Shown: positions 4,128 through 63,721 of the stretch, one piece after another
How positions within the stretch are numbered: position 1 is the first letter of the stretch
Layout: every line of letters begins with the position of its first letter
Assembly: GCA_027532905.1 (NCBI GenBank)
Contig: JAPZUA010000001.1
Span: 1 to 64,000, forward strand
DNA: 64,000 bases
DNA from: Magnetospirillum sp.
GTDB lineage: Bacteria > Pseudomonadota > Alphaproteobacteria > CACIAM-22H2
Direction: 5' to 3'
Made by a program: the position numbers and the translations under genes
The notes under the pieces: generated by a model
What the model saw: the letters and a program-made list of their open reading frames with translations, nothing else
The model's database searches: none
Told to the model about the DNA's origin: nothing

Positions 4128-5006
4128 ATGGCCGATGCAGTCGCCTACAACCCGTCGGAACTGCGAATTCTCGTCGTCGACGACAATCAACAAATGCGTT
4201 CGATCCTCAAGTCGATGCTGAACGGGTTCGGCGTGACCCAAATCGTGCCTGCAGTCGATGGGGCAGACGCGCTCGACAAACTCGCGGCCCAGACGTTCGA
4301 CGTCGCGATCTGCGACTGGCTGATGTCACCGATGGACGGGATATCCTTCGTCCAGGAAGTGCGCAAACACCCGGTCGCGGTACTGCGCGCCCTGCCGATC
4401 CTAATGCTGACCGCGCAGAAGGAAATGCGCAACGTGCTCGATGCGCGCAGTGCCGGCGTCGATGCCTACGTCGTGAAGCCCGTCAGCGCCTCGCTGCTCT
4501 GGGCGCGGCTCGAGACCGTTATCCAGCGCGCCAAGCACGTTTCGCCCGCCGAACCGCGCGCTGCCGCCAAGGCCATCGTGGCCGCGACGAGCAGCCTGTC
4601 GCATCTGGCCGACGCCTATCGCGACGTGCTGCGACTGGATTGCGACGATCTGGCGCGCGGCATGGGTCTGCTGCTAACCAGCGACTGGGACAATCGCGAC
4701 ATCTGGAATGCGATGTTCAAAAAAGCGCACGACCTCAAAGGCCAAGCGGGATCGTTCGACTATACGCTCGCGACCGACCTTGCCGAAGTACTTTGCGAGT
4801 TGCTGCGCCCGATCCGCCAGGAGTTTTCGCGTCGCAATCTGCGCGCGGCCGAACTCAAGACCGTGCTGCAGGCCAATATCGGCGCCCTGCAGCTGATCGC
4901 GCGCGAAAACATGATCGGCGACGGCGGTGCCGAAGGCCGTGAGTTGCTCGACCAGATGGACACGAAACGCTACCGGCTTCTGTCTGCTTGGGGCATCGAG
5001 CAATGA
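4128..5006 (+). CDS. Response regulator with C-terminal HPt domain (REC-HPt)
   Basis: The 292-residue protein joins a receiver domain (residues ~12-135; LVVDDN, phospho-acceptor Asp63 in ICDWLMSPMDG, Lys117 in VVKP) to a histidine phosphotransfer domain (His201 in KKAHDLKGQAGSFDY). There is no DNA-binding or enzymatic output domain. By family logic it would accept phosphate on Asp63 and relay or drain it through His201. It lies three bases after the hybrid kinase and overlaps the next gene by ATGA, so the three genes are very likely one operon. Its partner output regulator is not visible here. Confidence 0.88.
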   Translation: MADAVAYNPSELRILVVDDNQQMRSILKSMLNGFGVTQIVPAVDGADALDKLAAQTFDVAICDWLMSPMDGISFVQEVRKHPVAVLRALPILMLTAQKEMRNVLDARSAGVDAYVVKPVSASLLWARLETVIQRAKHVSPAEPRAAAKAIVAATSSLSHLADAYRDVLRLDCDDLARGMGLLLTSDWDNRDIWNAMFKKAHDLKGQAGSFDYTLATDLAEVLCELLRPIRQEFSRRNLRAAELKTVLQANIGALQLIARENMIGDGGAEGRELLDQMDTKRYRLLSAWGIEQ

Positions 5007-5563
5007 GCGAAGAAGCGGCCCTTACGGATGCAGCGATCGCCGGCGATTTTGGTCCGCTCGAACGCCATCTCGAATCGCACGGCTTCGAAAATCTTCTGCT
5101 GCGCTGGGCGCCCGACCCGGCCAAGCTCAACGTGCCCGAACTCGCCTTCCTGCACGGCTATTGGCTCCGCTTGCCGAAGGCAGGTTCGCTTGGGCGCTAC
5201 GATGCGATCGATCCGCTCGAAATGCGCCCGGCACTCGGCAACGTCATGCTGCTCGAAGCCGACGAAGCGGCCGACGACTATCGCTATCGTCTCTACGGTT
5301 CGCGGATTGCCGAGCGCGCCGGCTTCGATCTTACCGGCAAGTTCACCCGCGACGTGCCGACCCATCCGGCGCTTGGGCTGCTCTTTCGCGTCTGCTATCG
5401 CGCATGCGCGCAGCGCAAGATACCGCTTTTCACGCGCCACGTGCCGCCCGCAAGCGTCGGCGTACTCTATTGGACGCGTCTTATTCTGCCGCTGGCCGAC
5501 GATATGGGGGCGGCACGCCATTTCCTGGTCGGCAACGTTCCCGGCAAGGGCCATCCGGCGTAG
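5003..5563 (+). CDS. PAS_5-family PAS-domain protein
   Basis: The 186-residue protein resembles the alphaproteobacterial PAS_5 group, which are stand-alone PAS-fold proteins of unknown function. Recognisable parts are FLHGYWLRLPKAGSLG, DPLEMRPALGNVMLLE, YRYRLYGSRIAER and the closing RLILPLADD segment. No output domain is present. The ATG at 5003 overlaps the preceding stop as ATGA; an in-frame ATG at 4988 inside the upstream gene is less likely. Operon position suggests it senses a ligand for, or modulates, the kinase and REC-HPt pair. Confidence 0.75.
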   Translation: MSEEAALTDAAIAGDFGPLERHLESHGFENLLLRWAPDPAKLNVPELAFLHGYWLRLPKAGSLGRYDAIDPLEMRPALGNVMLLEADEAADDYRYRLYGSRIAERAGFDLTGKFTRDVPTHPALGLLFRVCYRACAQRKIPLFTRHVPPASVGVLYWTRLILPLADDMGAARHFLVGNVPGKGHPA

Positions 5564-5683
5564 CGTCGCATATTCTACAAAATCCATTTGTCTATCGAGC
5601 GCGCCGCGTATCGCGCCAACGCGCACCGTGACGGCGGAGTCTGCTAGGATCGCGCATTCTCAAGCGCAATTACCGGAGGCACA

Positions 5684-6793
5684 ATGTATCGGACCATTGC
5701 CGTTTGGACCGCGATCGCGGCGATTTCTGCAAGCCCCCTGGCCGCACAAGTTCAGAGCGAGAAGGCCACATATCGCGTGCAGCGGATCGCCGAGGGGCTC
5801 GAGAACCCATGGGCGCTCGCACTGCTGCCCGACGGCCGCTTACTCGTGACCGAGCGCCCCGGCCGCTTGCGCGTGGTCGAAAACGGCGCGCTGCAGCCGA
5901 ACCCGCTGGCGGGCGTGCCTGAGGTGTGGGCGCGCGGCCAGGGCGGCCTGTTCGATCTCGCTTTGCATCCGGATTTCGCCACGAACCGCCTGCTCTATTT
6001 CAGCTACGCAGCACCCGTCGGCAGCGGCGCTTTGACTCGTCTAGCGCGCGCGCGCCTGGGGGCAGCCGGCCTCGAAAATGTCGAGACCCTGTTCGAATCG
6101 TCCCCGGCGGTTTCGTCGGCGCGGCATTTCGGCGGCCGCATCGTGTTCGGGCGCGACGGCAAGGTCTATCTCACCACCGGCGATCGCGCCGAAGACATGC
6201 GCTCGCAGGACGGCCGCGATCTCAACGGCAAGCTCGTGCGCCTGGAGCCCGACGGCAAAGTCCCAGCCGACAATCCCTATCTTGGCCGCAGCGACATGCG
6301 GCCCGAAATCTTCGCGCTCGGCCTGCGTAACACCCAGGGTTTGGCGCTCGACGCAAACGGCGCCATCTGGGGGGCCGACCATGGCGCCCAGGGCGGCGAC
6401 GAACTCAATAGCCTCGTGCGCGGCCAGAATTACGGCTGGCCAATCATTACCCACAGCCGCAATTACGGCTCCGGCACGCAGATCGGCGAAGCCACCACGC
6501 GCCCCGGCTATGCCGATCCGCGCGTGATCTGGACGCCGTCGATCGCCCCCTCGGGTCTTTCGATCTATGCCGGTGCGGCATTCCCGGGCTGGCAGGGCTC
6601 GATGCTCGTCGGCGCCTTGCGCGGCCAGGGGCTCTACCGCATCGAATTGCAAGCGGATGGCAGCCATCGTCAGGAACGCCTGCTGGCAGAGCTTGGGGCG
6701 CGCATCCGCGACGTGCGGGTCGATCCGCAAGGGCGGGTTTATGTGCTGACCGACGCGCGCAACGGCATCCTCGCCCGCCTCGATCCGGGCTGA
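5684..6793 (+). CDS. PQQ-dependent aldose sugar dehydrogenase family protein, exported
   Basis: The 369-residue protein belongs to the soluble glucose/aldose dehydrogenase family, a six-bladed beta-propeller using PQQ and calcium to oxidise sugars in the periplasm. A signal peptide (residues 1-~21, ending SPLAA) is followed by family motifs: GLENPWALALLPDGRLLVTE, RGQGGLFDLALHPDF, HFGGRIVFGRDGKVYLTTGD, NPYLGRSDMRPEIFALGLRN and the GADHGAQGGDELN loop. Length fits the YliI-type group. A clear ribosome-binding site (GGAGG) precedes ATG 5684. It appears to be transcribed alone. Substrate cannot be told from sequence, and some family members have roles other than sugar oxidation. Confidence 0.87.
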   Translation: MYRTIAVWTAIAAISASPLAAQVQSEKATYRVQRIAEGLENPWALALLPDGRLLVTERPGRLRVVENGALQPNPLAGVPEVWARGQGGLFDLALHPDFATNRLLYFSYAAPVGSGALTRLARARLGAAGLENVETLFESSPAVSSARHFGGRIVFGRDGKVYLTTGDRAEDMRSQDGRDLNGKLVRLEPDGKVPADNPYLGRSDMRPEIFALGLRNTQGLALDANGAIWGADHGAQGGDELNSLVRGQNYGWPIITHSRNYGSGTQIGEATTRPGYADPRVIWTPSIAPSGLSIYAGAAFPGWQGSMLVGALRGQGLYRIELQADGSHRQERLLAELGARIRDVRVDPQGRVYVLTDARNGILARLDPG

Positions 6794-41413: not shown

Positions 41414-43237
41414 ATGACTCTCAGTCTCGACATTGCCAGTCTGCGCGCGGCCTATGCGGCCGGCCGCACGCCGCAAGAGGTGATCGGCGAAATCTACGAC
41501 CGGATCGCGGCACGCACCGGCGACAAGACATGGATCCATCTCGTGCCGCGCGCGCAAGCGCTGGCCGCAGCAGCAGCGCTCAAGCATATCCCGCGCGATG
41601 CACCGCTCTGGGGCATTCCGTTTGCGATCAAGGACAATATCGACTTGGCGGGCGCTCCGACGACGGCAGCCTGCCCGGACTTCAGCTACGTGCCGGCCGA
41701 ATCCGCTGTCGTCGTCGCGAAACTGGTTTCGGCGGGCGCGATCGCGATCGGCAAGACTAACCTCGACCAGTTCGCGACAGGCCTTGTCGGCGTGCGCTCG
41801 CCCTATGGCGTGCCGGAAAATCCGTTCGACAAGCGTTATATTCCGGGGGGCTCGTCGTCGGGTTCGGCTGTGGCAGTCGCGGCGGGCCTCGTGTCGTTTG
41901 CGCTCGGCACGGACACGGCGGGCTCGGGCCGCGTTCCGGCCGGATTCAACAACCTTGTCGGCTTGAAGCCGACGAAGGGGCTATTCTCCACGCGCGGCCT
42001 CGTGCCCGCCTGTCGCACGCTCGACGTCATTTCGATTTTCGCCCTCACGGTCGAAGATGCGCGTATTGCAGGCCAAGTCGCCGCCGCCTTCGATGCCGAA
42101 GATCCCTATTCGCGCGAGGCGGCGGCACCTTCCGTGCTCGACCGGCAAAAAGCACCTGCGGCGTTTCGCTTCGGCGTGCCGCAGGGCGCGGCTCTCGCGT
42201 TTTTCGGCGACGCGCAAGCCAAAGCGGTCTTTGCCGACGCGTGCGCGCGGCTCAAAAAACTCGGCGGCATCGAAGTTCCGTTCGATTTTTCGGCACTCAA
42301 AGAAACGGCCTCCCTGCTGTACGACGGTCCTTGGGTCGCCGAACGTTATGCCGCGATCGAATCCTACATGCGCGAAAAGCCGGAAGCCCTGCATCCGACT
42401 ACGCGCGCCGTGATTGCCAATGCCACCCGCTTCGACGCTGTGGCAACATTCAAAGCACTCTACCGTCTTGAAGCGCTGAAGCGTCGAGCTGCAGCTCTGT
42501 GGCGGGATTTCGACGTGATCGCCGTACCGACAAGCGGGACGATCTTCACGCTCGAGCAGCTTGCGGCAGAGCCGGTGCGCCACAATACCGAGCTTGGCTA
42601 CTACACAAATTTCGTCAATCTGCTCGACATGTCGGCACTCGCCGTTCCGGCCGCCATGCGCGCCGACGGCTTGCCAAGCGGCGTCACGCTGATCGGTCCC
42701 GCCTTCGCCGACGGCAAGCTTGCAGCCCTTGGTGCGGCCTTCCATCGCGACACGGGCCTGCCGATGGGGGCGACCGGCGTGCCGCAGCCCGCAGTAGAGG
42801 CCGCCGCACCTGCGAAAGACGCTGGCGAAACCGTACGGCTCGCGGTCGTCGGCGCGCATCTGACGGGCATGCCGCTCAACAGCCAGCTTACGCATCGCAG
42901 CGCCAAACTCGTGCGCGTTGCTGCGACCGCAAAGAGCTATCGGCTCTACTCCCTTGCCAACACAACCCCGCCCAAGCCCGGTTTGGTGCGCGTCGATCGC
43001 GCGGGCGAAGCCATCGCCCTCGAGATCTGGGAAATGTCGCTGGCTGCGTTCGGCAGCTTCGTGGCCGAGGTACCGGCGCCGATGGCGATCGGCACGCTCG
43101 AGCTCGACGACGGCACATGGTGCAAGGGTTTTGTGTGCGAGCCGGGCGCCCTGGCCGACGCGGAGGACATCACCGCGCATCGCGGCTGGCGCGCCTATCT
43201 GCAACATCGCAATGCACAACGCGCGGCCCAGCAATGA
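41414..43237 (+). CDS. atzF: Allophanate hydrolase
   Basis: The 607-residue protein combines an amidase-signature domain (residues 1-~455) with the C-terminal domain specific to allophanate hydrolases (~460-607; VVGAHLTGMPLNSQL, then SYRLYSLANTTPPKPGLVRV and EIWEMSLAAFGSFVAEVPAP). The Ser-cisSer-Lys triad motifs are intact ([38 protein letters not shown]). It converts allophanate to carbon dioxide and ammonia. The usual partner, biotin-dependent urea carboxylase, is not in the window. The stop overlaps the next amidase by ATGA. Confidence 0.94.
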   Translation: MTLSLDIASLRAAYAAGRTPQEVIGEIYDRIAARTGDKTWIHLVPRAQALAAAAALKHIPRDAPLWGIPFAIKDNIDLAGAPTTAACPDFSYVPAESAVVVAKLVSAGAIAIGKTNLDQFATGLVGVRSPYGVPENPFDKRYIPGGSSSGSAVAVAAGLVSFALGTDTAGSGRVPAGFNNLVGLKPTKGLFSTRGLVPACRTLDVISIFALTVEDARIAGQVAAAFDAEDPYSREAAAPSVLDRQKAPAAFRFGVPQGAALAFFGDAQAKAVFADACARLKKLGGIEVPFDFSALKETASLLYDGPWVAERYAAIESYMREKPEALHPTTRAVIANATRFDAVATFKALYRLEALKRRAAALWRDFDVIAVPTSGTIFTLEQLAAEPVRHNTELGYYTNFVNLLDMSALAVPAAMRADGLPSGVTLIGPAFADGKLAALGAAFHRDTGLPMGATGVPQPAVEAAAPAKDAGETVRLAVVGAHLTGMPLNSQLTHRSAKLVRVAATAKSYRLYSLANTTPPKPGLVRVDRAGEAIALEIWEMSLAAFGSFVAEVPAPMAIGTLELDDGTWCKGFVCEPGALADAEDITAHRGWRAYLQHRNAQRAAQQ

Positions 43238-44439
43238 ATCTCGACGCCTATACCCGCCACGAACGCGTCCACATCCTTGGCGTCGAAGACGGGCGGCTGC
43301 GCGGCACCGTGTTTTCGGCCAAAGACAATTTCGACGTCGCCGGCAAGCGCACGGGTGCCGGCAATCCAACCTGGCTGCAGACCCACAACAAGGCCACGCG
43401 CAGCGCACCCGCCCTGCAGCTGCTGATCGATGCCGGCGCCACGTTGCTCGGCAAAACAACGATGGACGAGATCGCCTACGGCCTCACCGGACGCAACGCG
43501 CACTACGGCACGCCGCTCAATCCGGCCGCCCCCGAGCGCGTGCCCGGCGGTTCGTCGTCGGGTTCCGCGTCGGCCGTTGCCGGGCGTGCTTGCGACTTCG
43601 CACTGGGTACCGACACGGGCGGCTCGGTCCGCGTGCCGGCGAGCTATTGCGGCCTCTTCGGCGTGCGGCCCACGCACGGGGCAATCCCTATCGAAGGCGT
43701 GGTGCCGCTTGCACCCAGCTTCGACACGGTCGGCTGGTTCGCGCGCGACGCCGATCTGCTCGAGCGCGTCGGCCGCGCCCTGCTCGATGCCAAAACGCCC
43801 CCGCCCGAGCCCACACGTCTGCTTGTGGCAAGCGACACCATGCGCCTCATCGATCCAGCCGTGCATGCGGCTCTATTGCCCTGGATCGGACGGGCAAAGT
43901 CGTTCTTCGAAGAGACGGCCGACATCGACGTCGCGGGCGCGGACCTGTCCGCGTGGTCGGACACGTTCCGCATGCTGTCGGGTGCGGAAGCTTGGGCGTG
44001 CCATGGCGAGTGGATCGAACAAGTCGAACCGCGCCTGGCACCCGACGTCGCCGCCCGCTTCAAATTCGCAAAATCGATAGACGCTGCGACCGTTGCCGCC
44101 CACCAGAAGCGGCGTGCGGAAATCTGCACGCACATGGATGCGCTGCTCGCACCGGGCACTATTCTGTGCATGCCCACGGCCGCAACGCCCGCCCCTTTGC
44201 GCGACGCCGACGAAGCGACGTTCGATCGGGTGCGCCAGCGCACTCTGCTGCTCACCTGCATTGCCGGACTCGTGGGCTTGCCGCAAATCTCGCTGCCCGC
44301 TGGCTTTGCCGACGATGCGCCCGTCGGCATCTCCTTCCTCGCCGCGCGCGGGCAAGACACGATGCTGCTCAATTTCGTCAAACTTCTGACCATTCCCCAC
44401 GCCGCGGAGCCGGACGACGATGCCAAAAGCCAAGCCTAA
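43234..44439 (+). CDS. Amidase-signature family amidase
   Basis: The 401-residue enzyme shows FSAKDNFDVAGKRTGAG (catalytic Lys), [13 protein letters not shown] (cis-Ser) and GTDTGGSVRVPAS (nucleophile). It is short for the family, as in AtzE/GatA-like small amidases. Position between allophanate hydrolase and allantoinase, with a four-base overlap before and a 20-base overlap after, makes it part of the same nitrogen-scavenging operon. An amide or carbamoyl intermediate of purine or pyrimidine breakdown is a reasonable substrate; biuret-type hydrolysis (as with AtzE) is another option. Confidence 0.87.
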   Translation: MNLDAYTRHERVHILGVEDGRLRGTVFSAKDNFDVAGKRTGAGNPTWLQTHNKATRSAPALQLLIDAGATLLGKTTMDEIAYGLTGRNAHYGTPLNPAAPERVPGGSSSGSASAVAGRACDFALGTDTGGSVRVPASYCGLFGVRPTHGAIPIEGVVPLAPSFDTVGWFARDADLLERVGRALLDAKTPPPEPTRLLVASDTMRLIDPAVHAALLPWIGRAKSFFEETADIDVAGADLSAWSDTFRMLSGAEAWACHGEWIEQVEPRLAPDVAARFKFAKSIDAATVAAHQKRRAEICTHMDALLAPGTILCMPTAATPAPLRDADEATFDRVRQRTLLLTCIAGLVGLPQISLPAGFADDAPVGISFLAARGQDTMLLNFVKLLTIPHAAEPDDDAKSQA

Positions 44440-50771: not shown

Positions 50772-53210
50772 ATGACGAATGCGGCCGTGCAACCGACGCC
50801 CTTCGGTCGGGCTTGGATCCGGCCGGTCATTGCCGAAGTCGACGGGCGCGTCACCGGCGGGCTTTTCGTGTCGAGCAAGGCCGGGCGCGGCAAACCGGCC
50901 CTCGTCGTTATTCCAGGCTCGTTCCGACCGGCGCAGATGCTGCTGCCCGCAGCACGCCTTCTGTGCGACGACTACGACATTCTGATCGTCGATATGCCCG
51001 GCTTCGGCGCGAGCCCGATCTACGAACCGGCCAGCATCGGTTCGTTTGCCGGACGCGCGGCGGATCTGCTGCGCAGCGTACTGGGCGAACGCGAGACGAT
51101 TCTGCTCGGCGAGTCGATCGGCGCCATCGTTGCGATGGCCCTCGCACCCGCTCTCGACAGCCGCTTGCGTGCGGCCGTCTATCTCGACCCGCCGGTCTCC
51201 GCGACCTCCCTCAGATCTGCACGCGACTATCTGCGGCGCGGGACCGCAGGGGTTGCGATGGACGAATTCTTCACGGGCTATGTCGAGGGGCCTGGGATGC
51301 TCGGCGACGGCAACGCGCAGGGCTATTGGCCAATGCTTGCGGCAGCCGCGACGCACGCACCGACCCTGATCATGTCGGGCGGCCGTGCTGCATGGCTCGG
51401 CGCGGTGTCGCCCGGTGCGCTCTTCACGCCCGACGACGAGACGAAGGCACGCGCACTGCAGATCGATACTTTGGCCGTGCAGCGTATCCCCACGGCAGGC
51501 CACCTGCTCTATCAGGAAAATCCCGGCGAGTGCGCCACGGCCACCGTGCGCTTCCTGCGCGCTGCCCTATCGGGCCTGCGCCATCTGGCGGGCCAGCTTG
51601 TTGCAGCACCAAGCGACACAAGCGTTCGCGACGCGCTGCTTGCGGCCCTCGGCGGTTTCGATCCCGCGAGCTTGCTGTCGCATCGCGATGCTCTGCTGGC
51701 CGTCGTTCGCGCGCGGCCCGACGACGTGCAGCTGATGAATGCGATCTTGCGCACCGTCTACAAGCTGCTCGATACGGAAGGGCTTGGGACGATGCGCTAT
51801 GTGGCGGCGCACGCAACCGAAGAAAACACGAAGCTGTGGACCTGCCTGCACACGGCCGTTTCGCTGTCGTGCCTCGGCGATCCGGACGGCGCGCTCGACA
51901 CACTGCGCACCTTCTCATTCGGCGCCGATATGCCGACGCGCGTGGCCGGCCTCATCCTGATCATCGAGCTCTATTCCGAGCACGCGACGGATTCGAGCGT
52001 TGCACGCGCCAAAGAAGCCCAACTGGCCGTGCTGCGCCGGCATCTGCCGAAGCCCTTGGTGCAGCCTGCGGTGCGACGCGCAAGTGCTGTACCGCGCATC
52101 GGCATGGCCAGCGGGTCGTTCGGCATGCGCAACTATATGAGCCTGCTGCTGCCTTTCCTGCGCGAAGCCGCGAAACTGCCGCTGTCGATCGAATTGCTGC
52201 CGCTCGTCGCGGGCGATCTCGAGATCGTGCGCAAGGCCTTGCCGGCCGAAACGCCGATCCGCGACATCGAAGAGATCACGATCGCGAACGTCGATTCCCC
52301 CGACGCTTGGCATCGCATGAACCAGACGCTTGCCGATCTCGACTACGATCTGCTGATCGATCTCGACGAATCCTTGGTGCCATATTTGCCGGCCTGCGTC
52401 GTCGGGCGCCCTGGCGCCAAGCAAGCGACATGGTTCAACATGTCGGGCCCTAGCCACGATCCGTGCTTCGACGCTGCGATTGGGCCTGACAGCATCTATC
52501 CGCTGTCGCTCGATGCCGAGTTTCCGGGCAAGGTCGCACGCTTGCCGGGCGACCTTTACGTGTTCGAGCCGGAAGTCTGGGTCGAACATGGTCTTGCATT
52601 GCCCGAGGCCGGGCCGCCGCCTTCGCTCCGCAACGGCTACACGACGTTCGGCTCGCTCTCGCATCTCTACAAAATTACGCAGCCTTGCATCGCCTTGTGG
52701 GCCAAGGTCCTGCACGCGATGCCGGACGCAAAGCTCTATCTCGGCAACGGCGACCTTTTGGAGATGCATGTAGTCGACCACGTCCGCAACAGTTTTCGTG
52801 AATGCGGCATCGCGCCCGAGCGCCTGATCTTCGCCTACCATTTCGGCTGGCCGCGCTATCTTGCGGGCTACCAGAATATCGACGTGGTGCTCGGCACGTT
52901 TCCGGTCGCCGGCGGTACGACCCTGTTCGAGGCCGCACATATGGGCATGCCCACATTGAGCCGCGTGGGTGCGACGAGCCTTGGCCGCATCGGCCGATGG
53001 CTCGAGGCGGCAACCGGCCGTGCGGGCATTGCGCACGACAGCGACGAATCTTTTGTTGCCGAGGCCGTGCGCCTTGCCCATGCGGTCGAGGAAAGAGCGG
53101 CCTTACGCGCCAATGAAACCAAACGCCTTGCCGCCAAATCCAAACTTGACGGCGCACGCATGGCGACGGCGTTTCTCGACATTGTGCACCAGCGTTTCAT
53201 GCGCAGCTGA
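50772..53210 (+). CDS. Alpha/beta-hydrolase fused to a GT41 (O-GlcNAc transferase-like) glycosyltransferase
   Basis: The 812-residue protein has two enzymatic halves. Residues ~10-265 form an alpha/beta-hydrolase with nucleophile Ser115 in LLGESIGAIVAM and His244 in PTAGHLLYQENP; an Asp at 221-222 could complete the triad. Residues ~280-430 are helical and may be a TPR-like linker. Residues ~441-805 resemble the SPINDLY/OGT catalytic domain: PRIGMASGSF, DLLIDLDESLVPYLPAC, TFGSLSHLYKITQPCIALWAK (Lys634 matching the conserved GT41 Lys), PERLIFAYHF and NIDVVLGTFPVAGGTTLFEA with HMGMPTLSR. The usual catalytic His region is altered to FGMRNYMSLL. It could glycosylate proteins such as flagellin and also de-esterify a substrate. 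AGGA precedes the start. Confidence 0.8.
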   Translation: MTNAAVQPTPFGRAWIRPVIAEVDGRVTGGLFVSSKAGRGKPALVVIPGSFRPAQMLLPAARLLCDDYDILIVDMPGFGASPIYEPASIGSFAGRAADLLRSVLGERETILLGESIGAIVAMALAPALDSRLRAAVYLDPPVSATSLRSARDYLRRGTAGVAMDEFFTGYVEGPGMLGDGNAQGYWPMLAAAATHAPTLIMSGGRAAWLGAVSPGALFTPDDETKARALQIDTLAVQRIPTAGHLLYQENPGECATATVRFLRAALSGLRHLAGQLVAAPSDTSVRDALLAALGGFDPASLLSHRDALLAVVRARPDDVQLMNAILRTVYKLLDTEGLGTMRYVAAHATEENTKLWTCLHTAVSLSCLGDPDGALDTLRTFSFGADMPTRVAGLILIIELYSEHATDSSVARAKEAQLAVLRRHLPKPLVQPAVRRASAVPRIGMASGSFGMRNYMSLLLPFLREAAKLPLSIELLPLVAGDLEIVRKALPAETPIRDIEEITIANVDSPDAWHRMNQTLADLDYDLLIDLDESLVPYLPACVVGRPGAKQATWFNMSGPSHDPCFDAAIGPDSIYPLSLDAEFPGKVARLPGDLYVFEPEVWVEHGLALPEAGPPPSLRNGYTTFGSLSHLYKITQPCIALWAKVLHAMPDAKLYLGNGDLLEMHVVDHVRNSFRECGIAPERLIFAYHFGWPRYLAGYQNIDVVLGTFPVAGGTTLFEAAHMGMPTLSRVGATSLGRIGRWLEAATGRAGIAHDSDESFVAEAVRLAHAVEERAALRANETKRLAAKSKLDGARMATAFLDIVHQRFMRS

Positions 53211-53219
53211 GCCGCATCG

Positions 53220-53936
53220 CTATCGGTGCGGCTTGACGATCACGCCCTGGCCGGTCGGGAGTCCCAAGATCGGCACGCCGTGCGCTTTGGCAAACGCATC
53301 GAATGCGGCCTTCTGGTTCACGTGCGGCAGCCAGTTGTAGTCGTCGAGCAGAATCACGCCGCCGGGCGACAATTTCGGCCAGAAATGCGTGACGGCGGCG
53401 ATCTCGGGCAGCGCCATATTCATGTCGATCGACAGATACGCCACTTTCTCGGCCGTCACCGTCGCCAACGTATCGGGCACGCGGCCGGGAACGATCTTCA
53501 CGTTCGCAACGGGTTCGAATTTCTGGCGGATGCGCGCGAGATCGTCCATGCCGCGATAGGTTTGATTGTAGTCTGCAAGGCCGAGTTTTTTCTCGGCGTC
53601 GGACAGCTGGTCCTCGGGCATGCCGTCGAACGTGTCGAGCAGCCACATCGTGCGCCCGGTTTGCGTGGGCCAGTTGGTCCACACGGCAATGGCGCCCGAA
53701 AGAATGCCGGTATGCACGCCGCATTCGACGAAGTCGCCCTCGGCGCACAGAGCCTGCTCGGCCGCCCATAGGGCGACCCATACGCGCCATTCGATATGCA
53801 GATCGAGCCTGCGGTCGTTGCCGACCATCATGCCGAAATTGTAGGCCGCCTTGAAACGCTGGCTGTTGAGAAAGTCGCTGTTGTGGAACGTGACCAGACC
53901 GTCGGCCTGGAATTGCGGTCCGAGTGGGGCAGACAT
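53220..53936 (-). CDS. TylF/MycF-type class I SAM-dependent methyltransferase
   Basis: The 238-residue protein resembles the macrocin O-methyltransferase (TylF) family that methylates sugar hydroxyls. Motifs are GDFVECGVHTGILSGAIAVW (SAM site), MWLLDTFDGMPEDQLSD, AYLSIDMNMALPEI and GGVILLDDYNWLPH (metal/substrate acids). The start at 53936 is set by the conserved N-terminal region and AAGGCG upstream. It converges on the GT41 fusion gene with nine bases between stops. As GT41-type enzymes add sugars, a sugar O-methyltransferase next door is suggestive of glycan tailoring, though opposite strands mean separate control. Confidence 0.82.
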   Translation of the reverse strand: MSAPLGPQFQADGLVTFHNSDFLNSQRFKAAYNFGMMVGNDRRLDLHIEWRVWVALWAAEQALCAEGDFVECGVHTGILSGAIAVWTNWPTQTGRTMWLLDTFDGMPEDQLSDAEKKLGLADYNQTYRGMDDLARIRQKFEPVANVKIVPGRVPDTLATVTAEKVAYLSIDMNMALPEIAAVTHFWPKLSPGGVILLDDYNWLPHVNQKAAFDAFAKAHGVPILGLPTGQGVIVKPHR

Positions 53937-53962: not shown

Positions 53963-55348
53963 TCAGGCCGGAAGGGGCCAAGGTTTTGCGCGTTCGAACG
54001 CATAAGCGGCGCGCAGGACGGTGCGGTCCTCGTAGAGGCGCCCGACCAATTGCAACGCCATCGGCAGTCCATTCGAATGCAGGCCGAGCGGCACGCTGGC
54101 GGCAGGCTGACGCGTCATGTTGAAAGGGTAAGTAAACGGCGTCCAGTCGATCCAATAGGACTGGTCCGGCGTGGCGACATCCTGCCCCGCAGCAAAGGCC
54201 GTGATCGGCAATTGCGGTGTGAGCAGCAGATCGTAGGTTTCGTGGAACTTCGCCATCGCCTCGCCCGCTCGCACGCGCATTGCATCGGCGGCAAGATAGT
54301 CTGACGCCGACAGGCCGAGCCCCGCCTTGGTCGAAGCCACCAACCCCGGATCACAGTGGGCCCACTGCTCGGGCGGGTAGGCCTGCAAGGCGCGCGCAAT
54401 GCCGCCCGTCCAGAGCCGATAGAACGCGTCGCGCAGATCGCCCAGATTGGGCTCCGCCAATTCGACGAATGCGCCAAGGTCGGCCAACAAAGCCGCAGCC
54501 TTCGCGACCGCCGCGGCTATCTCGCCATCGACTTTGGCGCCGCCGAGCGTGGGGCTGAAACCGATGCGCAGGCCCCTAATCCCTTTGTCGCGTTCGCCCG
54601 TCCACGAACCCGGATCATTGGGCAGCGAATAGACGTCGCGCGAATCGCGCGCTGCCATGGCTTCCAACATAAGCGCGGCATCGTCGACGCTGCGGGCCAT
54701 GGGGCCGATATGCGCGAGCAACCCGACCGGCGAGGCGGGATAAGCCGGCACGCGCCCGAAAGTCGGCTTGATGCCAAAGATGCCGCAGAAGCCGGCCGGC
54801 ATGCGGATCGAGCCGCCGCCATCTGTGCCCACATGCAGCGCCCCCATACCCAAAGCAGCCGCAACGGCCGCCCCCGCCGAGGAGCCGCCAGCCGTCTTGC
54901 TCGGATCCCACGGATTGCGGGTGATGCCGGTCAACGGCGAATCGCCGATCCCTTTCCAGCCGAATTCCGGCGTGGTGGTTTTACCCAAAAACACCGCCCC
55001 ACCTGCGCGCAGGCGCTCGACCGAGGGCGCATCGGCGTCGGCTGCGGGCGTGCCAACAAGCAATTTCGAGCCGCGCAAGGTCGGCCAACCCTTGACCCAG
55101 ATGAGGTCCTTGATCGAGGTCGGCACGCCGTCGATGGGGCCGTATTGCGTGCCCGCAAGCCAACGCGCCGCACTCGCGCGCGCCTGCGCCAACGCGGCCT
55201 CGGCATCGACGAGGCAGAACGCATTGTAGACGGGGTTGAGCCGCTCGATCTTGGCAAGGCAGGCCGTTGCCACCTCGACCGGCGAGAAGGCCCGGCTGGC
55301 GTAGCCGGAGACAAGCGCTTGCGCCGACAGCAGCGTCAAATCGACCAT
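53963..55348 (-). CDS. Amidase-signature family amidase
   Basis: The 461-residue enzyme has the full Ser-cisSer-Lys set: TSIKDLIWVKG, TAGGSSAGAAVAAALG and GTDGGGSIRMPAGFCGIFG. Length is typical for amidases acting on aliphatic or aryl amides or peptide amides. Start ATG 55348 has GGGAG upstream. It is divergent from the M81 peptidase gene, with only 64 bases between the starts, and reads toward the TylF-type gene 26 bases away. Location beside a peptide importer suggests it processes imported amides. Confidence 0.9.
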   Translation of the reverse strand: MVDLTLLSAQALVSGYASRAFSPVEVATACLAKIERLNPVYNAFCLVDAEAALAQARASAARWLAGTQYGPIDGVPTSIKDLIWVKGWPTLRGSKLLVGTPAADADAPSVERLRAGGAVFLGKTTTPEFGWKGIGDSPLTGITRNPWDPSKTAGGSSAGAAVAAALGMGALHVGTDGGGSIRMPAGFCGIFGIKPTFGRVPAYPASPVGLLAHIGPMARSVDDAALMLEAMAARDSRDVYSLPNDPGSWTGERDKGIRGLRIGFSPTLGGAKVDGEIAAAVAKAAALLADLGAFVELAEPNLGDLRDAFYRLWTGGIARALQAYPPEQWAHCDPGLVASTKAGLGLSASDYLAADAMRVRAGEAMAKFHETYDLLLTPQLPITAFAAGQDVATPDQSYWIDWTPFTYPFNMTRQPAASVPLGLHSNGLPMALQLVGRLYEDRTVLRAAYAFERAKPWPLPA

Positions 55349-61443: not shown

Positions 61444-62420
61444 CCGCTCCTTTGCTCGAAATCGTCGATCTCAAAAAGCATTACGAGATCCGCAAAGGCC
61501 TGTTGGGCCGCGTGTCGGCCAAGGTCTACGCCGTCGACGGCGTTTCGTTCCATGTCGATGCAGGCGAAACGCTTGGATTGGTGGGGGAAAGCGGCTGCGG
61601 CAAATCGACCGTCGGAAAATCGATCCTGAAGCTTGTTGAACCGACGGCGGGCACGATCCGCCTTGCCGGTACTGCCATCGAAAGTCTGAGCCGCAGTGCG
61701 ATGCGGCCGCATCGCCGGGACATGCAGGTCGTCTTCCAGGATCCCTATTCCTCCTTAAGCCCGCGCCTGACGGCAGGCGACATCGTCGCCGAACCGCTGA
61801 CCAATTTCGGATTGGCGACGGGCAAGGCGGCACGCGAACGCACGGCATGGCTCTTCGAGAAGGTAGGGCTGCGCGCCGACCAGATGGCCCGCTATCCCCA
61901 CGAATTCTCCGGCGGCCAACGCCAGCGTCTGGGCATCGCGCGCGCGCTTGCCGTGCAGCCCAAACTGATCGTGGCGGACGAGCCGGTCTCTGCCCTCGAC
62001 GTTTCGGTGCAGGCACAAGTCGTCAATCTGCTGATGGATCTGCAGGCCGAATTCGGCCTCTCCTATCTGTTCGTCGCGCACGACCTTGCGGTCGTCGAAC
62101 ATATTAGCCACCGCGTGGCAGTGATGTATCTGGGCAAGATCGTCGAGATCGCCGACCGGCGGACGATCTTCACGCGACCGCTGCATCCCTACACCGAAGC
62201 ACTGCTGTCGGCCGCCCCGACCCCCGATCCGCGCGCGCGAAAAACGCGGATCGTGCTTTCAGGCGACGTACCTTCGCCGATCAATCCGCCCTCGGGCTGC
62301 CGCTTCCATACGCGCTGCCCCGTCGCCGAAGCGCGTTGCCGCACGATCGAGCCGCCGATCCTCGAAATAGCGCCGGGCCATCAAGTGGCGTGCCATCTTC
62401 ACACGCCCGCATCGAGTTAA
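61440..62420 (+). CDS. Dipeptide-type ABC transporter ATP-binding protein (DppF-like)
   Basis: The 326-residue ATPase has Walker [29 protein letters not shown], signature [15 protein letters not shown], Walker [19 protein letters not shown] and the C-terminal Cys motif [19 protein letters not shown]. It overlaps the DppD-like gene by ATGA, closes the transporter operon and its stop overlaps that of the convergent amidase gene. Confidence 0.94.
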
Positions 62421-63721
62421 CGCTTCAGGAAAGCCTCGAACCACGCGGCATGGCCGATGAGTTCGCCGTCTTCGTTGTGCGGCCCGATCAACTGGATGGC
62501 GAGCGGCAACCCGTCGTCGCTTTTGCCGGCCGGCAGTGCGATCGCCGGGTTCCCCAGCAGCGTCCACATGCGGTTGAAGACGGGATCGCCCGTCCGCTCG
62601 ATGCCGCGCGGGGCGGGCCCTGGGGCGGCCGGAGCCAGGATCACGTCGACGTCGCGCCAGAGCTGCGCCAGCCGATGGCGGCATTTGGTGGCAAGGGCTT
62701 TGGCGGCCGTCTCCTCGCGAATGCCGACCCGGTCGCCCGTCTCCAGCATGTCGCGCAATGCTTCCGAAAGTTCGCCCGGATGTTCGGCCCGCTCGCGCGC
62801 AAGCGCCACGGACGCCTCGCGCGACATGATGGCGAGCTGCGCGTCGTTGAGATCCGCCCAGTAATCCTCGCCCTCGAAATCGCGCACGGAGACGCCCGCC
62901 CCTTCGAGGCGCGCCACCAGCAGCTCGAACAAGCGGCGCGTGGAACCGTCGGCCGACTCCCAAAAGGGCGTATAGCAAACGGCAACGCGTGGGGCCGGCC
63001 GGCCGGCATCGCCCAAGCCGGCGATGGGGCGGGCCGCCACGAGTGCGCGGCGCACGAGATCGAGATCGGCAACAGCACGACAGAACACGCCGAGCGTGTC
63101 GAGCGACGGCGACAAAGGCTTGATGCCCGCCATGTCGATCCAGCCATAGGTGCCCTTGTAGCCGACCACGCCGCAAAAGGCGGCAGGTCGGATCACGGAA
63201 CCCGCCGTCTGCGTTCCCAAGGCGAGCGGCACCTGGAAATCGGCGACGGCCGCCGCCGAGCCCGACGAGGAGCCGCCCGGCGTATAGCCGTGTCGTGCCG
63301 GATTGTGGGTCGGTCCCGGCGTGAAATAGGCGAACTCCGTGGTCACCGTCTTGCCCATTGGAATGGCGCCGGCCGCGATCAGCCGGCGCACGCACAACGC
63401 GTCGTTTTTGGGCCGATGGTTGCGGTAGATGGGCGAACCGTAGCCCGTCGGCATCGAGGCGGTATCGATCAGATCTTTGATCCCGATCGGGATGCCGTGC
63501 AACGGCTGCGTCCGCGCGACCCGGTCGAGGGCCGCCGCCCGGCCGCGCGCATCGCGCTTTTCGACATGGCGCCACGCGCGAACCTCGGGCTCGCGCGCGG
63601 CAACGCGCGCAAGACAGGCGGCAACCAGCGTCGAAGAATCAAGTTTGCCCGAATCGCACGCATTGCGCATTTCGAGGGCCCCGAGCATTTCGGGGTGCGT
63701 CGTCAAATGGGGTTTTGTCAT
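62417..63721 (-). CDS. Amidase-signature family amidase
   Basis: The 434-residue enzyme has [19 protein letters not shown] (Lys), [14 protein letters not shown] (cis-Ser) and [19 protein letters not shown] (Ser nucleophile), all intact. It is the fourth amidase-signature enzyme of the window. It converges on the dipeptide importer operon, and together with the amidase at 53963-55348 it brackets that operon. Substrate unknown; family members act on aryl and aliphatic amides and some on ureides. Confidence 0.9.

Follow-up and report, generated by a model that had tools for sequence, protein, structure and literature searches.

O-GlcNAc-type glycosyltransferases have mostly been described as a glycosyltransferase (GT) domain behind TPRs. 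In the first 64,000 nucleotides of contig JAPZUA010000001.1 from a Magnetospirillum sp. (the stretch of DNA analysed here, hereafter the window), a first-pass annotation had proposed a chain that joins an alpha/beta-hydrolase to a transferase of the GT41 type. This locus raises the question of whether such a chain is a genuine gene or two genes joined by error, whether the combination is common, and what a hydrolase might do in front of a glycosyltransferase.

The open reading frame (ORF) begins with ATG and runs through 812 codons with no internal stop (Table 1). Pfam placed Abhydrolase_6 (PF12697) at residues 44-256 (E 3e-16, 61.2 bits against a cut-off of 26.3) and Glyco_transf_41 (PF13844) at residues 626-785, the latter barely above its cut-off (E 2e-6, 26.8 bits against 25), and none of the Pfam TPR models matched the 812-residue protein. 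The AlphaFold2 model, computed from 20 aligned sequences (mean pLDDT 85.0, pTM 0.70), consists of an alpha/beta domain at about residues 12-267, a run of helices at 269-422 and, starting near residue 440, a GT-B domain. When the model was compared with solved structures by VIA-align, the hydrolase domain matched 3kxp (Z 25.1, rmsd 2.6, 224 residues aligned) and 3bwx (Z 25.0, rmsd 2.8, 232 aligned), and the fusion matched the O-glycosyltransferases SPINDLY (8dtg_B; Z 40.1, rmsd 4.2, 515 aligned), TtOGT (5djs; Z 39.2, rmsd 4.7, 501 aligned) and xcOGT (2jlb; Z 35.4, rmsd 4.7, 495 aligned). For 10 of the 11 top rows, the match with these GT41 chains has Z 34-40 over 474-517 residues and begins at residue 267-297, before the GT domain. 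In sequence as well, the GT part is closest, among solved proteins, to these three (profile E 1e-28 to 4e-26), and the models and fold matches alike have the GT-B domain preceded by helical repeats that is expected of GT41. ORF, Pfam, structure model and fold search thus agree on a single hydrolase-GT41 chain with a helical linker. The first-pass annotation, which set the hydrolase against the N-terminal TPRs usual in GT41 proteins, needs one correction: the repeats are not wholly replaced, residues 269-422 being modelled as helices.

Table 1. Features of the fusion gene and its convergent neighbour, in window coordinates
Feature	Position	Strand	Evidence
Fusion gene, 812 aa: alpha/beta-hydrolase, helical repeat and GT41-type GT-B	50772..53210	+	ORF, Pfam, model, fold match
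Alpha/beta-hydrolase domain, residues 12-267	50805..51572	+	Pfam; model; VIA-align 3kxp, 3bwx
Nucleophile Ser115 (in GESIG), immediately following strand 109-114	51114..51116	+	invariant in 10/10 modules; model
Candidate catalytic acid Asp139 (in LDPP), immediately following strand 132-138	51186..51188	+	invariant in 10/10 modules; model
His244, catalytic His after strand 234-239	51501..51503	+	invariant in 10/10 modules; model
Helical-repeat linker, residues 269-422	51576..52037	+	model; fold match begins here
GT41-type GT-B domain, residues 440-812	52089..53207	+	Pfam; SPINDLY and TtOGT fold match; xcOGT profile 1e-28
Arg453, replacing the GT41 histidine (DFRxHS)	52128..52130	+	alignment
Lys634, aligned with SPINDLY K665	52671..52673	+	K in 13/13 clade rows; alignment
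Trp693 of the clade-specific GWP motif	52848..52850	+	W in 13/13 clade rows, 0/53 others
GGTT diphosphate-binding loop, residues 714-717	52911..52922	+	alignment
TylF-type O-methyltransferase, convergent to the fusion and 9 nt beyond its stop	53220..53936	-	PF05711 2.8e-18; conserved neighbour; independent pairing in G001

Ser115 and His244 were found intact where they had first been placed, each after the expected strand, so that these residues and the Pfam score together identify an alpha/beta-hydrolase fold. Ser115, Asp139, Pro140 and His244 do not vary among ten related hydrolase modules, which belong to three types of chain (GT41, sulfotransferase and FkbM). The acid of some alpha/beta-hydrolases sits after the strand that corresponds to 132-138, and Asp139 is, judging from the model, a candidate for the catalytic acid; in the stretch after strand 198-203, the window protein has no Asp (GGRAAW) and several relatives have one. 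The module resembles stand-alone alpha/beta-hydrolases (3kxp, 3bwx, ABHD6 7ots and the esterases 4uhc) in fold, GxSxG motif and position of the His; unlike them it is fused to a transferase and has D139, after strand 132-138, as its probable acid. Because GT41 chains dominated the fold search, hydrolase rows were few and tied, and no hydrolase function could be read from them. Nor is the function fixed by NCBIfam, since its matches (PcaDC, PcaD, BioH, MenH and others) all lie far under their cut-offs.

For the GT part, we compared 66 GT41 domains from the window and 44 loci, of which 13 fall into the clade of the fusions and 53 outside it. Lys634 and the GTFPVAGGTTLFEA donor loop were confirmed at the positions first given. 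The Lys634 position is occupied by Lys in all 13 rows of the clade (47 Lys and 6 Arg in the other rows), and Thr717 is likewise kept in 13/13. The histidine of DFRxHS occurs in 0/13 rows of the clade as opposed to 52/53 outside it, Arg (8), Pro (2), Leu (2) or Glu (1) taking its place, and we accordingly file the domain in a divergent GT41-like clade and not as OGT or SPINDLY. Four GT41 members of the clade carry no hydrolase, as judged by length and by the hydrolase profile, which makes the loss of the histidine a trait of the clade and not of the fusion. Like xcOGT (2jlb), TtOGT (5djs) and SPINDLY (7y4i, 8dtg), the fusion has a helical repeat followed by GT-B, together with the Lys and the Thr loop; it differs from them in its N-terminal hydrolase, its missing histidine, the clade motifs DLDES, TWFNMxGPS and HFGWP, and an identity of 17-22%. 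According to excerpts of the SPINDLY report (PMC9715652), H495A and H495F are dead, D491A is active, and the authors assign the role of catalytic base to the alpha-phosphate of the donor; excerpts of this and of an OGT report name SPINDLY K665 and OGT K842 as the essential Lys (PMC9715652, PMC4683255). From the spacing of D491, H495 and S496, H495 would be the His of DFRxHS. The first-pass annotation had noticed the loss of a catalytic His near residue 450, and Arg453 indeed stands in its place, but the loss weighs less than was implied, because the base in SPINDLY has been assigned to the donor in those excerpts and because the loss extends over the clade. Since the clade has lost several further motifs besides the histidine, catalysis could be altered or absent.

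Is the fusion then real? The genome of the window (G000) encodes a full-length paralogue that is 50% identical over residues 6-806, and nine fusion genes were found in 6 of the 11 genomes of the genus sample, whereas none was seen in the other 12 genomes of the 23-genome family sample. G000, G002 and G003 have two copies each, one of those in G002 being cut at a contig end, and G004, G006 and G001 have one each. Glyco_transf_41 scores lie above the cut-off of 25 for the window protein, the paralogue (30.9), G004 (27.6) and G001 (34.3) and below it for G006 (22.1). The ninth fusion, that of G001, is divergent and was recognised from its upstream part; its hydrolase falls under the Pfam cut-off (Hydrolase_4, 16.4 against 27), yet the fold is present in the model, which has the same three parts (pLDDT 78.3) and whose hydrolase matches 9l75 (Z 23.5, rmsd 3.3, 239 aligned). 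Because this hydrolase escaped a hydrolase search, nine is a lower bound. In the four closest pairs, NG86 pN/pS was 0.13-0.24 for the hydrolase, 0.13-0.22 for the linker and 0.04-0.22 for the GT part, which scored lowest of the three parts in three of these pairs and highest in the remaining one; all parts of the fusion are thus under purifying selection in these pairs. For the more distant pair of the window and G004, the values were 0.46, 0.38 and 0.30, respectively, with synonymous sites near saturation. The paralogue, the orthologues in other genomes and the selection on all parts rule out a sequencing error or a chance read-through, and the suspicion that two genes had been joined by error is thereby removed. 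The hydrolase-GT41 fusion is real and conserved in this little-known bacterial group.

Beyond the genus, long matches to the fusion were absent from the 61 genomes searched and from the 23 family genomes, the search of the order covering these same 23; three further loci from a contig scan coincided with those of G003, G002 and G004 and added no genome. Profile searches detected no fusion outside the genus among 385 genomes of the class (E <= 1e-50) or 398 of the phylum (E <= 1e-40). In these searches at most 2 candidates per genome were scored, at strict thresholds, so that a fusion that arose separately and differs in sequence would escape them. Three other genomes of the phylum matched through the GT part alone, and the hydrolase profile found no match there. 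Among the 66 GT41 proteins, the hydrolase profile, for which most of the nine fusions had themselves supplied modules, matched these nine and none of the 57 others. No hydrolase-GT41 fusion is named in the titles and abstract openings that we searched, a body of literature from which most subscription journals are missing. A common fusion is therefore not supported at this search depth, and the combination looks rare.

Related hydrolase modules also occur in front of other transferases in this genus. G000 encodes a hydrolase-sulfotransferase chain, recognised by Pfam, with orthologues in G002 and G003; it comprises 550 residues (L134:7305-8957, at about 1377304-1378956 of contig C1) and is overlapped by a short ORF that presumably resembles a nucleotide kinase. 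In G010, a 725-residue chain (L137:11006-13183, contig C197) consists of a hydrolase, an FkbM methyltransferase and about 270 residues with no Pfam match. These chains have in common with the fusion a related N-terminal module with its Ser, Asp-Pro and His, and differ in the C-terminal transferase. In G010, an FkbM methyltransferase gene also lies directly upstream of a hydrolase-less GT of the fusion clade (L047:6448-7767 and 4871-6394, contig C13). Counting the two fusions, the GT half has fourteen matches in G000. One could picture a "deprotect-then-cap" module, in which one kind of ester hydrolase is reused before glycosyl, sulfuryl and methyl transferases and would free a hydroxyl, by taking off an acyl group, for whichever transferase is attached, an idea that we regard as rather unlikely.

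We searched for the module in the 385 class genomes, scoring at most 6 candidates in each; 63 genomes had a match at E <= 1e-12. Outside the genus, the strongest hit was an unfused 275-residue protein of G392, from another family (5e-39; next 2e-21). Aligned over 234 columns with the window module, this protein shows 31% identity. Its gene belongs to a same-strand series of TylF, the hydrolase, a 514-residue ORF, a second TylF, a 381-residue ORF and a TPR-GT41 gene; the 514-residue ORF (L171:7726-9270, minus strand) has no Pfam match and overlaps the hydrolase gene by ATGA. Two flagellins of G392 score above the cut-off, on a different contig from this cluster. In the family of G392, 5 of 18 genomes match the hydrolase (E <= 1e-10), the second best being G315 (2e-24), and the 20 kb read around the G315 locus contained no match to TylF, GT41, flagellin or rml-type genes. 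The fusions group with the four hydrolase-less GT41s in a single clade (100/100). Holding the fusions as a single clade in the GT tree was not rejected (p-AU 0.298), and constraining the nine GT-fused hydrolases to a single clade was weakly rejected (p-AU 0.037), a value to be read with a warning of long branches; the hydrolase may have been attached to GT41 twice.

The gene neighbourhoods offer a clue to what the fusion acts with. A TylF gene adjoins the fusion in five genomes (5/9 stretches), convergently in the window, G002, G003 and G004 and upstream on the same strand in G001. The convergent arrangement kept in G002, G003 and G004 proves little alone, because synteny is general there. In G001, 4 nt separate the end of the TylF gene from the ATG of the fusion; this pair comes from a single 3.1-kb contig in a fragmented genome, where TylF is cut at the contig end and enters the tree with 149 residues. 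In a tree of 18 TylF proteins, this copy groups with the island TylFs (see below) of G001, G005 and G009 (100/99), and the window-type TylFs form a separate clade (98/100). The tree forces two pairings with fusions, a single pairing occurring in 0% of bootstrap trees; TylF has been paired with the fusions twice, independently. The three C6-type paralogues, which adjoin a pentapeptide-repeat gene, and the G006 copy, which heads a same-strand run of GalU, UDP-sugar-dehydrogenase family and PgmG genes, have no TylF neighbour. Neighbouring ORFs were called by a custom codon-usage caller trained on ten window ORFs, and some long calls may be wrong; the starts of one such ORF, L041 11349-13688, vary between genomes. 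Elsewhere in the window, four ORFs within 22 kb (41414-43237, 43234-44439, 53963-55348 and 62417-63721) match each other's G004 counterparts at about 29-32% identity, and we take them to resemble amidases.

A second TylF gene is present in 10 of the 11 genus genomes, and in 10/10 it adjoins an rmlC-like gene of the flagellin-glycan island. The run of rmlC, rmlD-like, rhamnosyl-O-methyltransferase-like, unknown 160-residue ORF and hexapeptide transferase is whole in eight of these ten stretches, and the contigs of G001 and G007 end within it. These names were set on the G006 copies and transferred by BLAST; in G006, RmlC scores above its NCBIfam cut-off, the NCBIfam models for RmlD and the rhamnosyl-methyltransferase score below theirs, and Pfam RMNT_CmcI scores above. 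A GT41 gene is found in nine of the ten stretches (absent from that of G007), and a flagellin gene in the same or an adjoining stretch in five (G000, G006, G008, G009 and G010). In G004, the run lies beside a flagellin gene and starts at the contig start, without TylF. The fusion-side and island TylF copies of G000 are 71% identical. These two independent TylF pairings, with relatives in the flagellin-glycan island, support a link of the fusion to a methylated surface glycan.

The first-pass annotation had also suggested that the fusion might control flagellin, for which the evidence is indirect. The window fusion lies 49 kb from the flagellin genes of the window, and in the nine fusion stretches read (40-64 kb for the window, 3 kb for G001) there was no flagellin or rml-type gene; the surroundings of the G006 copy and the separate contigs of cluster and flagellins in G392 likewise speak against it. 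G000 has 10 Flagellin_N matches, and the window itself opens with an ORF cut by the contig start, followed by a flagellin gene (1-435 and 813-1637). The ends of contigs C1 and C7 are both flagellin and identical over the last 141 nt, the first 31 nt of the window lying at the start of that stretch, which indicates that the assembly breaks at flagellin repeats. As far as descriptions allow a comparison, the closest working analogue would be Caulobacter FlmG, with N-terminal repeats, a C-terminal GT-B domain and a host with many flagellins (PMC7591256). In the excerpts of that report, FlmG, unlike the fusion, has TPRs and no hydrolase, and it needs pseudaminic acid; its N-terminal TPR part binds flagellin, and the GT part alone fails to restore function (PMC7591256). 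We do not assign the fusion to the FlmG class, a gene of which would be sought among flagellin or flagellin-glycan genes; here, only the TylF neighbour has relatives in the island.

What the fusion does can be proposed only tentatively. Our preferred reading, which we consider plausible at a little under even confidence, is that of a bifunctional surface-glycan enzyme that would combine ester hydrolysis with sugar transfer, TylF acting as the O-methylating partner. The helical-repeat linker would hold the acceptor, onto which the C-terminal GT-B domain would move a nucleotide-activated sugar, possibly a UDP- or dTDP-hexose; the N-terminal Ser-Asp-His hydrolase would cut an ester (an O-acyl group, for instance) of either the acceptor or the sugar just transferred, and the neighbouring TylF would O-methylate a sugar hydroxyl. 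We infer both activities, their order, the donor and the acceptor, which could be flagellin, another surface protein or a polysaccharide. The earlier idea, that glycan addition might be coupled with acyl removal, fits the evidence, and the fusion probably helps to build the methylated sugars of a surface protein or glycan. The Ser-His-Asp set also serves some acyltransferases, and together with the low NCBIfam scores of the hydrolase models this would allow the N-terminal domain to be an acyltransferase of alpha/beta-hydrolase fold that adds an acyl group to the sugar transferred by the GT domain. Against this, a hexapeptide-transferase gene is already present in the flagellin island, and we think an acyltransferase quite improbable.

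The occurrence of related modules on GT41, sulfotransferase and FkbM methyltransferase chains could also be explained if the hydrolase domain were a docking module only, steering different transferases to the same acceptor much as the N-terminal part of FlmG binds flagellin (PMC7591256, excerpts). The Ser, Asp and His, invariant in all ten modules across the three chain types, speak against such a role, to which we give little credence. A GT domain that is inactive or a mere scaffold, leaving the work to the hydrolase, would account for the lost GT41 His in 13/13 rows and the clade-specific changes at other motifs; the retention of Lys634 and Thr717 in every row and the lowest pN/pS in three of four close pairs (the highest in the fourth) argue against this explanation, which we consider improbable. 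The target, finally, might be a polysaccharide or a lipid-linked glycan instead of flagellin or another protein. The G006 copy beside GalU, UDP-sugar-dehydrogenase and PgmG genes, the G392 cluster apart from its flagellins and the nine stretches with zero flagellins fit such a target, whereas the nearest solved GT relatives are protein glycosyltransferases and the TylF relatives sit in the flagellin island; on this evidence we judge it unlikely.

Returning to the bifunctional reading, a genus in which hydrolases precede a histidine-less GT41, a sulfotransferase and a methyltransferase makes it possible to test whether the removal of acyl groups is coupled with the capping of sugar hydroxyls. 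The histidine-less clade is, in addition, a natural experiment on which GT41 residues are needed for catalysis.
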